Assembly: GCA_025617745.1 (NCBI GenBank)
Contig: CM046863.1
Coordinates: forward strand, 9,784,935 to 9,848,934
Source: Heliocidaris erythrogramma
Taxonomy: Eukaryota; Echinodermata; Echinoidea; Camarodonta; Echinometridae
Direction of reading: 5' to 3'
DNA length: 64,000 nt
Shown here: piece by piece, positions 13,971-21,351 of the stretch
How positions within the stretch are numbered: position 1 is the stretch's first letter
How the letters are laid out: each line of letters starts with the position of its first letter
The notes under the pieces: generated by a model
What the model was told of the DNA's origin: nothing
Databases searched by the model: none
What the model saw: only the letters and a program-made list of their open reading frames with translations
Made by a program: the position numbers and the translations under genes

Positions 13971-14883
13971 ACTGCAATCATATTTACTTGATTTCACAAA
14001 AATAGTGGGGTCTGTTAGTGACAAATATACCGATAATCGTTACACGGCGGACAAAAGCATTTTTTTCACCAAACCTTTGTACATGTATAAGGATTAAAAT
14101 TAGGGTCGGCTCCAAAAAATCTGATCACATGAATGGTAAGAAATTAGGTCCAATTTTCATGATTTTATTAATGCCACCTATATAGCAAACTGTCTGCATT
14201 CACAGACTAACACAACAGGAAGTCCTTTCATTGATGAAATGCTCGCGTCTGATTGGTCAAAACTTCTGTGTGTGGCCTGCTGTCATGGTTGCAGTAAAAG
14301 TGACAATGCCATGTAATGGCAGTCCATTTTGCTATCTTATTTGGATTCATCTTTGGATCAGTCTACTTTGTTCCAGGCATATCCTTAAATTTCAGTAAGT
14401 AAATCCTTGTAGTACTGTTTTAGAAAACTTACTTTTCTTAATGTTCATTCCACTGCTTGATGTTAATTAGTATTGCAAATTAACAACTCAAGACAAAAGC
14501 CAGTCCCACAAATGTAAAATGGTGTTGGAATGAAAAGGATAATTTTTGACAATCTGGATGAACAAAACTAATTCAAAAAACTGATTTTAGCACCACTATA
14601 AACATAAATATGATTCTTTGTTTTCATCTTCCTTGGTTTTTCCAATTGTTATGCTGTTTATCTTTATAATTATATCATATTGGAAAAAAACATGGGAAAG
14701 TGAAATTGAGATGAGAAATGTATTTGCTAGGCTAGTCTAATTTGATATTTTTTGTGTTTGTGCTGAATTACTGACACAACAAAATATATTTTAAATTAAT
14801 ATTTATCCCTATTGATAAAGTCAGAATTTTTTAAAGGCCAAATTGATATAGTATAGTGGCATAGTAGTAGAATAAGAATATAA

Positions 14884-15507
14884 GTGCCACACGCCCCCAA
14901 CGCCCAACTGCGTTGGACTACCGATGATTCTATTTTCTTGGAGTTCATTAAAGAGGTACACAATGAAGACAGAGAAAGACTTCTCATTTCCACAAGACGC
15001 CATGCCATGGACAGGATATATCTCATAGAACTCATCCGGAAATATGCACGTTGGCAAGCAATTGGCAATAGACTAACCCGCCAAATGGGGAAAGTGAACA
15101 ACCAGATCAAGGACAAACTCAAGAAGTACAATACCAAGTGGAACAAGCAAGGCTTCTGCTTGTTATTTGAGCAGGTAGCCCAACCTGATGATCCAATTAA
15201 TACAGAGCATCTGCTTCCTGTGTGTCAAGTGAAACCTGGCATTCCAACATCCATATTCGAAAGAGCTGATTCCTTGCAGAACAGAATTCAGCGTAGTGTG
15301 GAGGAGATGGACATGACAAAGATCGAGATGAATTAAATGCTTTCATGGCAAAACAAGCAAGAGAAAATCCTCCTAGAAAAGATTTATGACTTGTGTCAAA
15401 CAAATAAATATGAGATGGGTCTGTCCATAATCTTGTGGATGAAGGTTAAAGAAATTAGAGAACATCTTCATGTCGTGCACAGTTCAGAGATTATCTTTAA
15501 AGGAGAA
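14884..15507 (+). pseudogene. Helical ORF, possibly the C-terminal part of a KDZ-type transposase
   Basis: The frame opens at 14884 (150 codons), has one TAA at 15334-15336, and continues in the same frame to TGA at 15505-15507, about 207 codons in all. The translation is charged and helical (for example RERLLISTRRHAMDRIYLIE and KVNNQIKDKLKKYNTKW). Its heptad-like pattern recalls the region that ends Kyakuja-Dileera-Zisupton transposases, but this is from memory and weak; no catalytic motif is visible. It ends inside a ttaaaggagaatgaa block that looks like the start of another small repeat, which may explain the abrupt change of content before the RT segment. Confidence 0.4.
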
Positions 15508-15598
15508 TGAACCCTTGATGGAAACTTTGCTTCCTGTAGATGCAGGAAATCAATAGAACCCATTAATGAAAGTTTGAGATAAATCAGATAATAATAAA

Positions 15599-16690
15599 AA
15601 AGATGGAGGAGTCCGATGGTGCATTGACTACCGCAAGCTGAACAATGTGGCCAAGAAGGACGTCTATCCTCTACCATGTATTGAAGAATGCCTTGATACT
15701 CTGGCTGGCAATAAATGGTATTCAAAACTTGATGCTAATGCCGCCTATTGGCAAATCAAGGTAAGCGAATCCGACAGAGACAAAACAGCCTTTGTTACTA
15801 AACATGGACTGTATGCATTCGTCCGCATGGGATTTGGCCTGTGCAACGCACCGGCCACATTCCAGCACGTGATGAACTTAGTCTTGAGAGGTCTGACATG
15901 GGACGTGGCACTTGCGTTCTTGGATGATGTTCTTGTATGATGTTCTTGTATTAGGTAAATCATTCCCAGATCATATCCAGAACCTAAGAGCAGTTATGAG
16001 ACCTTTCAAAGACTACAAACTTAAACTGAAACCCAAGAAGTGTGCCCTATTTCAAGAAAGGGTAGAGTTCTTGGGTAGAGAAGTTGATGCTGCAGGATTG
16101 CATCTACCAGAAGAGAACATTCAAAGGGTAGTTGAATGGCCTACTCCTATTTCCACCAAAGCAGTAGAACAATTTCTTGGGCTAGCCAACTACCATAGGG
16201 TGTTCATGAAGAATTATGCACGGGTGGCTGGACTGTTATATGAGCTTACAGGTAGTAATGCATTTTGCTGCACCAATCTGCATTTGAACAGATTAAAGCT
16301 CTACTAACATCTGATCCGTTCATCTTATATACTGATGCATCGAGCACAGCGATTGGAGCAGAACTATTGCAAGTTCAGAACGGCGAGGAGAAGGTTATCG
16401 CCTATGGCAGTTTATCCCTTTCTCCACAGCAAAGGAATTACTGCATTACTCGTCGTGAGCTTTTAGCGCTGGTGCTCTTTTATAGACAGTAAAGGCACTA
16501 TCTTTTAGGTAGGCCATTTACTGTGAGAACGGATCATGGCAGTTTAACGTGGCTGCTCAACTTCAAAACGCCGACAGGACAGTTGTCTCGCTGGCTTGAG
16601 GAGTTGGGGCAGTATGACATGCAAATTGAACACCGGCCTGGTAGGCGTCATTCGAATGCCGACTCTCTTTCTCGCATTGCGGACACTCAG
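15599..16690 (+). pseudogene. Ty3/gypsy-type reverse transcriptase and RNase H, disrupted
   Basis: The RT starts abruptly at KKDGGVRWCIDYRKLN, so gag, protease and the RT N-terminus are missing. KLDANAAYWQIKV carries the first catalytic Asp, and AFLDDVLV at about 15915-15940 is the F/Y-x-DD box. A 13-base tandem duplication (15926-15938 and 15939-15951) then shifts the frame. The connection domain follows (FLGREVDAAG; FLGLANYHRVF). RNase H begins near 16290 with LYTDASSTAIGAEL and has an in-frame TAA near 16490, then resumes with RTDHGSLTWLL and HRPGRRHSNADSLSR. Divergent frames and stops mean it makes no full protein. Order and motifs are those of a gypsy pol gene. Confidence 0.9.
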
Positions 16691-16841
16691 CCGGTTTGTG
16701 AGGGGTATGAGCTTGGTGTGCGAATACAAGACTTGCCATGTGGCGGGTGCTCATATTGCACCAAAAGACACAGAGAATGGGCACATTTCGTCGATTGCAT
16801 AGACGATGTTGTGCCATTGAGCCAAAGCCAACGGGTCTCAA

Positions 16842-18183
16842 GTGTGGCTGTTGAGTGTTTCCCTGTCACACATGGAAATATCCTTTAATACAGCCCATTC
16901 ATTTGAGATCAGAAGTATTTCAGTTGGTGGCCCCGACAGGGTGGCAGAGGACCCGCCTTCTGACAATTTAGTCAAGCAAGAGCAGGAAAAAGACCAACTC
17001 CTCATGCCCCTACGTAAATGGTTATCCGACAAGGAAAAATTGGATGAAGGGACCTTGTTTCTCCTCCCACCCGAAGGTAAGTTTTTGTGGATAAACAGGG
17101 ACCTCTTTTTCCTAAAGGAAGGTGTTATCTGGAGAAAGAAGGATGAAGGTGATGTCATGGTGGTTCCTGAGTCACTGAGACGTGACATCATCCGGCTGAA
17201 TCACGATCCTCCTTCAGCAGGTCATGCTGGAATCAATCGTACTCGGGCTAAGTTAAAGTCAAAGTACTATTGGTACGGCATGTCGGAAGATATACGAATC
17301 TATATAGCAGGATGTGCTATTTGCAATCAAAACAAGAAGGCCACACGTCATGGGAGGCATCCTATGAAGAATTATCATGCTGGTGCGCCCATGGAGTGTG
17401 TCCATCTCGACTTTATGGGTCCACTGCCAAAGTCCTCACAGGGTAATGAGCAGATCTTGGTTATGATAGACCAATTCACTAAATGGGTGGAATGCGTACC
17501 CCTGCCTTCCCAAACGGCGGAGACGACGGCTCATGCAGCTGTGAGCATTTTTTTCATCCTATGAAGAATTATCGTGCTGGTGCGCCCATGGAGCGTGTCC
17601 ATCTCGACTTTATGGGTCCACTGCCAAAGTCCTCACAGGGTAATGAGCACATCTTGGTTATGATAGACCAATTCACTAAGTGGGTGGAATGTGTACCCCT
17701 GCCTTCCCAAACAGCGGAGACGACGGCTCAAGCAGTTTTTTCTCCCGATTTGGATATCCATTTCAAATCTTCACGGATCAGGGCAGGAATTTTGAAAGTA
17801 TCCTTTTCAAGGACATGTGTCGTGTCCTTGACATTCATAAATCCAAAACTACCGCTTTCCGCCCCCAAGCAAATTCGCAAGTTGAGAGAGCAAATAGGAC
17901 CTTGATGGATGCGGTGCGATGCTATGTCTCTAAGTCTCAAAGAGACTGGGATAAACATCTGCAGCAAATCGCAGGTGCTATTCGTTCTACCGTCAATCGT
18001 ACGACTGGATTTACCCCTAACAAGCTGATGCTGGGTCGGGAGGTAAATCTACCCGCTGATCTCGTATTCTCGGTTCCCCAACGAACGCAAGAGCAGACTA
18101 AAGAAGAATTTGTTGCCGAGCTGACTTGTGCTATGCGGAAGGCCCACATTTCAGGTAGGGCAGCAATTAAAGCCGCTCAATGA
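16842..18183 (+). pseudogene. Gypsy-type integrase with internal 197-bp tandem duplication
   Basis: A zinc-binding HHCC module is clear (H in AGHAGINRTR, then CAICNQ). The catalytic core gives VHLDFMGPL (first Asp), FTDQGRNF (second Asp) and QVERANRTLMDAV (Glu). A direct repeat of about 197 bases (17358-17554 and 17555-17735) duplicates the first core segment and breaks the frame; a second shift occurs near 17740. The ORF from 17680 then runs to TGA at 18181. Integrases of this type insert cDNA for gypsy elements, and relatives act as transposases in Ginger DNA transposons, which is relevant because this copy lies between inverted repeats. Confidence 0.88.
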
Positions 18184-18186
18184 AGA

Positions 18187-18615
18187 ATGAAACGAGATTA
18201 CGACGTCAGACAATATACAAGAGAATTTGAAGTAAATGACCGTGTATATATCAGGGATACGGCTAGTGTCAAGGGGAGATCACGTAAGTTGAGCCCCCCT
18301 TGGAAAGGACTTGCGGTCATTGTGGAAAAAAGGTCGCCTTATCTCTATCGAGTAGCCTCCAAAAGAACAATAGCCACTTATAATCACGATCGTTTGAAAA
18401 AATGTACGGATCGAAGTAAGGCTATTGTTGAGACTCCTGGCAAAGACAAACTTTACTGTCTTTGCCGGAAGCCTGATGATGGCTCTTTGATGATTTGTTG
18501 CGACAAATGTCTGCAATGGTATCATGGAGCATGTGTGGGAATTACCCAATCAGGAGGGCTAGAAGATCTTAAATGGTTTTGCCCCTTTGTGCCAGGGGGA
18601 GATAGACCAAGGTGA
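18187..18615 (+). CDS. Integrase C-terminal domain fused to a PHD finger
   Basis: The segment continues the integrase after one stop. The first part (residues about 1-75) has the GPY/F-like fold region, with KLSPPWKGLAVI and a YRV strand. Residues about 90-136 form a PHD finger: YCLC, ICCDKC, WYHGAC and WFCPFV. Seven of the eight zinc ligands of the C4HC3 pattern are present; the last Cys reads Val. PHD fingers usually read histone H3 tails, often H3K4me3, so this could guide insertion to active chromatin, a role chromodomains play in other gypsy lineages. The frame ends exactly at CAAG|GTGAGT, which looks like a splice donor rather than a natural C-terminus. Confidence 0.8.
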   Translation: MKRDYDVRQYTREFEVNDRVYIRDTASVKGRSRKLSPPWKGLAVIVEKRSPYLYRVASKRTIATYNHDRLKKCTDRSKAIVETPGKDKLYCLCRKPDDGSLMICCDKCLQWYHGACVGITQSGGLEDLKWFCPFVPGGDRPR

Positions 18616-18732
18616 GTATAATGAGTGATCCTTCCAGTATGGTTGATTATAATTATGCAAATCATTAACTCGCTAGTCTTTTGCCCACCACACATGCTGT
18701 AATCTGATCATTAACTGTTTTTATCTTATGCA

Positions 18733-19215
18733 GTGAGAGGGATGTCAGGACCACAAGACCTCCCACCGCCTCCAGGGGAAGAGGAAGTGTGGCACCCAGT
18801 TAATATTTCTTCTGAGATTACTCTTAAAAAGGTACTCAGCTCGGCTTCGGAGCAGGCTTCTCCGGGCAATCCACCTCTTGCTCCAGCAGAGGGGACTGCC
18901 CAGGGTAAAGCCCTCTCTGAGGCCGAGCGAGAAAAGAAAAGAACAGCAAATCGGAAGAGAAGAGAGCACGAGAGACGGGCCAAAAAAGCCAAAAGGGAGC
19001 AGGAACAAAAAACTGCCCCTGGCCCACTTCCCGGGCTCTCTTCTGGACCTTCTCCCACCGGAAGTTTTGCCGTGGGGATTGGTCGTGGCCGTGGACTCTG
19101 GCCAGGGCCTAGATCACTCCACATGGCGGGATTCTCTGGTGGGAGAGGACGGGGCATGACCCCCCAATTTGTTAAGCAAGCCCTTCGCGAACTTGTACCC
19201 GAAGGACCAACTTAA
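18733..19215 (+). CDS. Basic, Gly/Arg-rich ORF between PHD and TatD modules
   Basis: A 160-codon open frame follows an acceptor-like ttatcttatgcag at 18733. It starts with an acidic, Pro-rich part (PPPPGEEEVWHP), then a strongly basic stretch (EREKKRTANRKRREHERRAK) that could be a nuclear localisation or DNA-binding basic region, then a Gly/Arg part (GIGRGRGLW; GGRGRG). Joined directly to the PHD exon at the first AG it is out of frame; using AG at 18736-18737 it would be in frame. I do not recognise a family. An alternative frame at 18878-19159 also stays open, so the true frame is uncertain. Confidence 0.45.
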   Translation: MRGMSGPQDLPPPPGEEEVWHPVNISSEITLKKVLSSASEQASPGNPPLAPAEGTAQGKALSEAEREKKRTANRKRREHERRAKKAKREQEQKTAPGPLPGLSSGPSPTGSFAVGIGRGRGLWPGPRSLHMAGFSGGRGRGMTPQFVKQALRELVPEGPT

Positions 19216-19250
19216 GGGGAAAAAGTGGGTCGTCTTGCCCGCAGCCACTG

Positions 19251-19830
19251 ATGAAAGGGTTCGATGCCCATTACCATCCAGATAGGATCGCAATAAAAGA
19301 AGCGAAATCGGAGCTCCAGGGGAAACCTGTGCACCCTGTCGAGGTGGCTGTGGGCATACACCCCAAACAAGCCTTTGGCCTGAAGAATACTCATTTTGAG
19401 GCCTTGAGATCGGCCCTTGCCGATCCGAGGGTTCGAGGCATCTCGGAGGTGGGGTTTGATTGGACCACGGACGACTCTGAGTGGGAGGCACAGGAGAAGC
19501 TCTTTGAGCGGCTCCTGGGGCTTTCCACGGGCCGATTCCAAGGTCGGTACACAAATTGGCATGGGATGCCATCTGGCGACACAGCGAATCCACCTTCACT
19601 GTTTTATGGGTTCGCCGGACATTGTCGACGAGTGGACATCAGTGTTTCGACATGCCTATTTTGGAATTACAGGCAATGTTTCTCATTACTGTGGATTGGG
19701 TGCCCATCTTAAACTGTTGGGGATCCAATCCATCCCAAGCAACCGTCTTGTTGAGAAGGACGCCCCCTACCTGCCTGTCCGCCCGTCGGCCCGTGAAACA
19801 GACCTATCAGGTACTTCAGTGATTTCCAGA
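19251..19830 (+). pseudogene. TatD-family metal-dependent nuclease domain, frameshifted
   Basis: TatD proteins are TIM-barrel metal-dependent DNases. Here GFDAHYHPDR gives the HxH metal motif, VAVGIHPKQA the next strand, and VRGISEVGFDWT the metal-binding Glu with its usual context. TNWHGMPSGDT probably carries the next His. Near 19575 the frame shifts (to the frame read from 19417), where HLHCFMGSPDIVDEW gives another metal His and IPSNRLVEKDAPYLP the terminal Asp motif. All expected TatD landmarks are therefore present in order over about 185 codons, with one frameshift. Its position downstream of the integrase-PHD segment and inside the TIRs suggests it is element-encoded rather than a host TATDN gene; it has no host-like intron pattern. 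Confidence 0.8.
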
Positions 19831-19839
19831 GGTGATTGT

Positions 19840-19998
19840 GAGCCTATGTCAGACTGCACACATGAAGAAGCAGACACACAGATCATTGTTCATCTTCGTT
19901 CAGCTTCAGCTTCCAAAGGGTTTGGATATTATTACCCTGGCTTTAGCCCCGGCAGCCGTAATCAGCGCTAGTGCATTTCAAGGAATAAATCCTGCCAG
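19840..19998 (+). pseudogene. HEEADT-motif segment of a transposon-associated protein
   Basis: THEEADTQIIVHL is a motif I know from large families of unannotated, repeat-linked proteins of marine invertebrates, where it precedes a Gly-Trp segment and a CXC cluster, as here. The acidic EEAD resembles the internal motif of XPG/PIN-type nucleases, but that link is inference. A frameshift occurs near 19918 (KGLDIITLALAP in the other frame). The segment ends at a donor-like CCAG|GTACCC at 19999. Confidence 0.5.
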
Positions 19999-20207
19999 GT
20001 ACCCATTATCACTTTGCAACCCATGTTATCACTTTGCTACTGAATTTGTGGAATCGTGCATTGGCTGATGCTCAATTTGATTATCCTTTTTTACTTGCAA
20101 TTTATGTTACCTCTGAATAAGGTTTATCCTAAAATCTAAAATTATTCTTATTACCTGATCATCTAACTCTGTTATTTATTTTTTCTATTTTCCTCATTAT
20201 AATTAGG

Positions 20208-20500
20208 ATGCCTTGCTCCAGCACATCAAGAGAGTTGTCAACCAAGGTGGTATCTGGACAACAAGTTGTCATGCACAGCCTTCAGTACCTTCCCCAGAGG
20301 GGTGGGGATGGACAATGGAGAGTGGTCATTGGGTACCCGTTTGGATGACCGTCCCTGAATCAGCTGAAGCTTGTAAGGAGCTCATCAAATGTGGCTGCAA
20401 ATCCGAAGCTGGTTGTGTCAGTCGCTGCAAGTGCACAAAGGCACAGAACTTTGCAATTGCAACTGCCAGAAGTAATATCTTTACCAGCTACAATGTATAG
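20208..20500 (+). CDS. Tesmin-like CXC cysteine-cluster exon
   Basis: After an acceptor-like tataattag the frame reads DALLQHIKRVVNQ, then PSPEGWGW, HWVPVWMTVPE and the cysteine cluster CKELIKCGCKSEAGCVSRCK followed by C. Such CXC clusters bind DNA in tesmin/TSO1 proteins and are common at the C-terminus of HEEADT-type ORFs. The cluster is shorter than usual: the second half (CT.LC.C) is lost to ATARSNI and a stop. It is probably the last exon of the element's gene, joined to 19840-19998 across a gap of about 210 bases. Confidence 0.6.
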
Positions 20501-20738
20501 CAATGCAAATTCTTTGGTGGTGAGGGCAACATTTACAAAGAAGCTGATGACGCCATTATGCAGACCTTTAACATACCAGGACTGCTATAGGCACTTTCTA
20601 CATTGGAAGCGTTTTTTGTGAGCTACATGAGTAGCACTATTATAGATCTAGTCCGTGTTGACAGTGTATATTATACTAGTAATCTGCACCTCAACATATC
20701 GAGTGATAAGTCTACAAGGCAGATCTATGGCCTTGGCA

Positions 20739-21143
20739 CTTGAACCCTAATTTGAGAAGATGAATCATAAAGATGCTTTGGTGAAAATGTCATGGTTGTG
20801 TCTACCTTGTACATGTATCAACTGATTTCACGCATAAATTAGCATAAAATAGTAATAAAGACATCATTTTAACCCCTTTCCATCATTAATTTTCTTGGAG
20901 CCAACCCTAATTTGGGAAGGTGCATCATAACGAGGCTTTGGTGAAAATTTCATGCTTGTGTCCACCTTGTATCGACAGTCTACAGCAAAAATCTTATTTT
21001 ATGCATAAATTAGCATAAATTAGTAATGACATAATTTTGACCCCTTCCGTCATCAATTTTCTTGGAGCCGACCCTAATTTGAGAAGGCGCATCATAACAG
21101 TGCTTTGGTGAAAAATTCATGCTTTTGTCCACCGTGTAACGAT
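20739..21143. repeat. Triplicated subterminal repeat at the right end of the composite
   Basis: The block ccctaatttg(a/g)gaag(a/g) ... tttggtgaaaa ... catgcttttgtccacc recurs at about 20747, 20906 and 21072, spaced 159 and 166 bases. Copies are separated by a gcataaattagcataaa(a/t) block. The last copy ends in the terminal inverted repeat. Multiplied subterminal motifs are typical transposase-binding arrays. Confidence 0.85.
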
Positions 21144-21351
21144 GTTTTCGCTAAGCCACCCCATCTCCAGTAGAAACAAATGCTTTTATAAAAGGTGAAA
21201 ACAATTTTATTGAAAACTGGAATGTCTTGAGAGGTACATTTTTATTTGCATAGTGAGTTACATTCACATAAAAGTGTACATACTACATTTCTGGACATTA
21301 CCAAAATCATGTACATAAATTCAAATCTCTATTAAGAAATACCCACACAGG

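Follow-up and report, generated by a model that had tools for sequence, protein, structure and literature searches.

The window (the whole 64,000-nucleotide stretch of Heliocidaris erythrogramma DNA analysed here) holds, between positions 14003 and 21163, parts of a DNA transposon and of an LTR retrotransposon. Comparison with other copies in the genome (1.06 Gb in 26 contigs) divides this region as follows:

14003-14851, + strand: 5' end of an Academ-like transposon (TIR and non-coding 5' part); 14002-14854 shows 87-88% identity to the copies on contigs C2 and C11, and the outer terminus was placed by comparison of ends.
14852-14906, + strand: first 55 bp of the retrotransposon 5' LTR (TATAGTGGC...), matched by the LTRs of the C12 and C21 copies and by 28 further LTR starts in the genome.
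14907-15595, + strand: segment with most of a 150-residue open frame (14884-15336), matched by neither partner.
15596-16888, + strand: Gypsy-type RT and RNase H, frames broken and RT N-terminus missing (Pfam); 15596-16924 shows 93.7% identity to copy L070.
16821-18183, + strand: integrase (H2C2, rve; Pfam) containing a tandem duplication.
18457-18585, + strand: C-terminal PHD finger of the integrase frame (PF00628, 1.6e-10).
18742-19785, + strand: basic low-complexity region and TatD DNase, frame-shifted, last 43 residues missing (TatD_DNase; tblastn).
19786-19800, + strand: 15 bp making up the right junction, past the last retrotransposon match and before the first transposon match.
19801-19899, + strand: piece of a putative XPG/FEN-like nuclease exon of the transposon, with the motif HEEADT (98% identity to the C2 and C11 copies).
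19900-20022, + strand: foreign piece replacing about 730 bp of the transposon, not found in the C2 and C11 copies.
20023-21163, + strand: transposon 3' end with CXC-tail exon (20207-20500), subterminal repeats (20744-21138) and TIR (21049-21143); about 90% identity to the C2 and C11 copies.

The gypsy pol, PHD and TatD modules that the first-pass annotation had read on the plus strand are present, with RVT_1 (1.8e-18), RT_RNaseH (6.4e-9 and 2e-16), Integrase_H2C2 (5e-20), PHD (1.6e-10) and TatD_DNase (3e-10) above their Pfam cut-offs and rve (2.5e-4) below its own. HEEADT (at about 19862-19879) and the Cys-rich, CXC-like stretch in frame 20207-20500, both also recognized earlier, are there as well; the latter gave no Pfam match. 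The reading frames of the modules are broken. The integrase carries a tandem duplication of 181 bp (17358-17538 and 17555-17735, 96% identity), a possible GT...AG intron is seen in the sequence 3' of the PHD finger at 18612-18733, and a tblastn alignment with the TatD part of a 448-residue frame from another copy (L062) extends to residue 395 of 438. The segment behind the LTR start had no other match across the genome from 14907 to 15496 (about 590 bp) and only weak ones (75-84%, five places) from 15497 onwards, and a protein search with its 150-residue frame (14884-15336) returned no relatives. Within the foreign piece, 19910-20006 is 79% similar to one place in L015/L016, a pair of transposon ends on C8.

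The diverged inverted repeats previously reported at 14036 and 21143 are real: 14036-14128 aligns with the reverse complement of 21049-21143 at 78% over 97 bp (E 1.6e-12), and a local alignment of the 130-bp ends scored 55.5, whereas none of 1000 pair-shuffles exceeded 20.5. They extend beyond the positions first given: the other copies end in TAGTGGGG...CCCCACTA, which places the left terminus at 14003 and the right one at about 21163, the final bases of the window copy being different from those of the others. The 5' repeat has 11 matches in the genome. Besides the window there are three two-ended copies, one of 9.75 kb on C2 and two of 8.7 and 9.6 kb on C11, and since the C11 copies have common flanks in opposite orientation, they were counted as a single insertion that was later duplicated. 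Inspection of these sites for a target duplication found TTA on both sides of the C2 and C11 insertions (two of two readable insertions); for the window copy the duplication is unreadable because the start at 14003 follows AAA and the 3' end at 21163 is altered. The remnants are two 5' ends on C8, inverted relative to each other at a distance of 69 kb, and a single 5' end on C13. Transposon ends occur as inverted, flank-sharing pairs both on C8 (L015/L016, 69 kb apart) and on C11 (L011-L014, 17 Mb apart), and these pairs are segmental or assembly duplicates. In the window (20744-21138) and in the C2 and C11 copies, the 3' end contains subterminal direct repeats, each with an inner TIR motif and spaced by about 173 bp in the C11 copies, which perhaps serve as transposase-binding sites.

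Could a DNA transposon have captured the pol, PHD and TatD of a retroelement and moved with them? This composite, one of two readings offered by the first-pass annotation, would accommodate the fact that all modules lie inside the TIRs in one orientation, but the pol-PHD-TatD block is absent from the three sister TIR copies. Searches of these two-ended copies (six loci) by tblastn at E 1e-3, using the RT, RNase H, integrase and PHD frames of the window, the RT of L070 and the TatD of L062 as queries, yielded no match to RT, RNase H, integrase, PHD or TatD, and blastn likewise found no pol, PHD or TatD in any of the three. What the C2 and C11 copies do hold are long frames with a Cys-rich N-terminus, a DUF6589-like part (5e-6 on C2, under the Pfam cut-off; 1e-6 on C11, over it) and a part with the motifs HEEADT, DTDV and GCDTT. 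Evidence for the CXC-tail exon comes from frame 20207-20500 of the window, which aligns with the end of a related protein, P0006. HEEADT and the CXC stretch thus belong to the DNA transposon and RT, integrase, PHD and TatD to a retrotransposon, and the assignment of all modules to one element does not hold.

The same copies bear on a second class of elements. Ginger1 resembles the locus in its Gypsy-type integrase; the difference is that here the integrase comes from an LTR element that also has RT, and the TIRs from a separate one. One Ginger1 family, Ginger1-9_HM, lists a PHD domain in the accessible text of PMC2836005. A Ginger-like element, with TIRs around an integrase that acts as its own transposase and without RT, was considered and rejected, as none of the three two-ended TIR copies has an integrase match.

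A search with the DUF6589-like part scored 7994 candidates and gave 356 relatives; names among the 120 listed include records of fish, cnidarian, sponge, crustacean, sea spider and moth origin as well as a single bacterial bin. The best named transposase relative among the matches listed is from Strongylocentrotus purpuratus (79%). The motif GCD[TS]T is found in 10 of the 120 listed relatives, nine of which also contain EEADT. A structure model of P0006 (41 sequences, pLDDT 83.7) was compared with the PDB, and the best 12 of 286 matches are Xrn1, Rat1 complexes, Rad2, XPG and T5 FEN with probabilities of 0.84-1.00, the best E value being 2.5e-3 and none reaching 0.001 or lower. Because these top matches of the model are 5'-nucleases, the HEEADT module is most likely an XPG/FEN-like nuclease part of the transposon gene. 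In the model of a second protein, P0034, made to look for the DDE core of the transposase, the N-terminal part is poor (mean pLDDT 66.2) and its PDB matches are not meaningful.

Academ elements encode a protein that includes an XPG-type nuclease and an Academ-type DDE transposase core. The TIR element is similar to them, and to the AcademX lineage in particular, in its TIRs, its predicted nuclease-encoding transposase gene and its 3-bp flanking duplication (TTA). According to the accessible text of PMC10045372, AcademX elements encode a nuclease and have target duplications of 3 or 4 bp, and a link between the Academ nuclease and duplication length is offered there as a suggestion. The element is longer, at 8.7-9.75 kb, than the mean of 5565 bp given for a curated bivalve Academ set in the available part of PMC10294476. 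We therefore describe it as an Academ-like DNA transposon, a placement by nuclease part and target duplication in which the transposase core is known as a DUF6589-like match only.

The RT-INT-PHD-TatD block is a Gypsy-type LTR retrotransposon with the order gag-PR-RT-RNaseH-INT-PHD followed by a TatD ORF. The window segment 18430-19801 has at least 96 genome matches (from the best 40 of 75 candidates scored). Outside the window the PHD piece was found at 20 places, and at all 20 a TatD piece lies no more than 3 kb away on that strand; the count is biased towards such places because the query contained both. In the copies, TatD is followed on its 3' side by a purine-rich tract and then by TATAGTGGC, and the same sequence stands upstream as a 5' LTR of 355 bp on C12 and 342 bp on C21; the 5' and 3' LTRs are 99.7% identical in each copy, and a 4-bp duplication, GTAT, lies on both sides of the LTR pair in both copies examined. 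LTR starts (28 matches outside the window) form nine same-strand pairs 5.4-14.2 kb apart, and a PHD or TatD match is enclosed by all nine; for two of these pairs the sequence of both ends was inspected. The block thus has its own LTRs elsewhere, which again speaks against the composite.

The 5' part of the retrotransposon is seen in L070 (C3:38222600-38229608), a copy that carries TatD. In addition to RT (1.6e-22), it has three weaker matches 5' of RT, all under the Pfam cut-offs: gag-like (0.0084), zinc knuckle (6.7e-4) and protease (1.7e-5). In a related copy, L079, the protease is above threshold (3e-8). The gag of L070 is interrupted by extra frames, which we take to resemble a DIRS-type RT and recombinase. 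The retrotransposon shares with Ty3/Gypsy elements the LTRs with a short target duplication, a gag-like part, protease, RT, RNase H and an H2C2/rve integrase after RT. It differs from them by the PHD finger after the integrase and by the extra TatD nuclease ORF before the 3' LTR.

At the left junction the sequence reads GATATAGTATTTC in the transposon copies, GATATAGTATAGTGGC in the window and TATAGTGGC in the LTR. The breakpoint is ambiguous by 3 bp, since TAT is common to transposon and LTR, and the retrotransposon part starts at the first base of the LTR, 14852, which indicates that the retrotransposon was inserted into the transposon. A query covering 14700-15620 gave 40 genome matches among the best candidates scored, a search that a very diverged second copy could escape, and the window was the only one to span the junction: six of the others are pieces of the three transposon copies that stop by query position 155, 28 are LTR pieces that start at query 141-153, and the remaining five are weak matches elsewhere, around query 798-906. 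On the right side retrotransposon similarity ends at 19785 and transposon similarity starts at 19801. Here an open frame (19408-19971) links the TatD part and HEEADT across the junction, as a composite would lead one to expect; we read it as a chance product because the TatD frame is shifted farther upstream and lacks its final 43 residues. The second LTR and the retrotransposon's target duplication are absent inside the transposon, and the insertion is therefore seen from one side only.

With the left junction found once and the sister copies free of pol, the composite was rejected, and we regard it as very improbable. The two findings that the first-pass annotation had named as refuting it, TIR copies free of the block and gypsy LTRs around the block at other loci, were both obtained. 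That the combination was found once is also what an error in the assembly would produce. Such an error is just as improbable in our estimation, as both transposon ends flank the block in the correct order and orientation and the left breakpoint is an LTR terminus, which is what an insertion predicts. Very probably, then, 14003-21163 is a dead nested relic, an LTR retrotransposon inside an Academ-like DNA transposon. Nested remnants had been the fallback in the first-pass annotation, and it is this reading that agrees with a left junction at the LTR start and with both partners found separately, the TIR copies without the block and the block between LTRs.

The order of events may be reconstructed from these boundaries. 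An Academ-like transposon of about 9-10 kb, with a gene ending in the putative XPG/FEN-like nuclease part and the CXC tail, would have inserted here first, and the Gypsy-type retrotransposon with PHD finger and TatD would then have integrated at 14851/14852. Later losses would have removed most of the 5' LTR and gag, the 3' end of the retrotransposon with its 3' LTR, and the body of the transposon gene, joining TatD (ending at 19785) to the nuclease exon (starting at 19801). Both partners presumably once moved by the mechanisms typical of their classes: the transposon by cut-and-paste with its own transposase, the nuclease part perhaps processing ends or intermediates, and the retrotransposon by reverse transcription and its own integrase. 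The PHD finger could plausibly read histone marks for site choice, and flaps, RNA:DNA hybrids or linear DNA may be the substrates of TatD. The relic in the window has no mechanism of its own.

Elsewhere in the genome the TatD gene is better preserved. In five copies (C2, C6, C12, C16 and C21) a separate INT-PHD frame is followed by an intact 448-residue frame that encodes a basic region and TatD; TatD_DNase reaches 1.7e-32 in the C21 copy. In six more distant or broken copies (L073-L078), PHD and TatD are found in four, and TatD only in L077 and L078. Among three sub-lineages, dN/dS of TatD is 0.18, 0.13 and 0.17 (NG86, 244-273 codons), with YN00 values of 0.16 and 0.10 for two of the three pairs; dS, at 1.2-1.9, is near saturation. 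The motifs that we take to form the metal site of the TatD family are present in L062 and L075, while in L077 the last D is changed to G. The TatD protein has at least 106 genome matches (from the best 96 of 559 candidates scored) at no fewer than 89 distinct places including the window, a count of TatD places for part of which the retrotransposon setting is established. Its best named relatives are from Lytechinus variegatus (67%) and L. pictus (78% over 63% of the query).

Other arrangements of TatD also occur. In L079 (C14:25641700-25646400, minus strand) a single 1488-residue frame, open at the end of the sequence taken, encodes protease, RT, RNase H and also TatD, and a search of three pieces of this frame against Pfam at E 0.01 gave no integrase; frames of comparable length that contain TatD occur on C20 and C9 as well. 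This type is possibly a lineage that lost its integrase, or one that spreads as a spliced form. L080 (C1:8265900-8269300, minus strand) has a 968-residue frame with TatD at the C-terminus and no other Pfam domain, and the TatD matches scored include three more frames of 965-968 residues.

These observations are consistent with a diverse Gypsy-type clade that has acquired TatD as a permanent gene where env would lie, beside a PHD-bearing integrase, and maintains it under purifying selection; TatD would then have a function in the life cycle, such as the trimming of cDNA flaps or RNA:DNA hybrids. We advance this tentatively, giving it slightly less than even weight. The literature searched, which covered titles and the beginnings of abstracts with subscription journals and Repbase reports outside its scope, held no description of a TatD-carrying retrotransposon or of a conserved TatD nuclease as LTR retrotransposon cargo, and an earlier description elsewhere is possible. 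In the available text of PMC6962438, a gene is merely labelled TATDN2.

Our analysis eliminates a candidate for a new class of mobile element and assigns an origin to each of its parts, and the TatD-carrying retrotransposon lineage is more interesting than the composite that had been supposed. If the TatD nuclease does act in reverse transcription or integration, it would be a cargo enzyme with a directly testable role.
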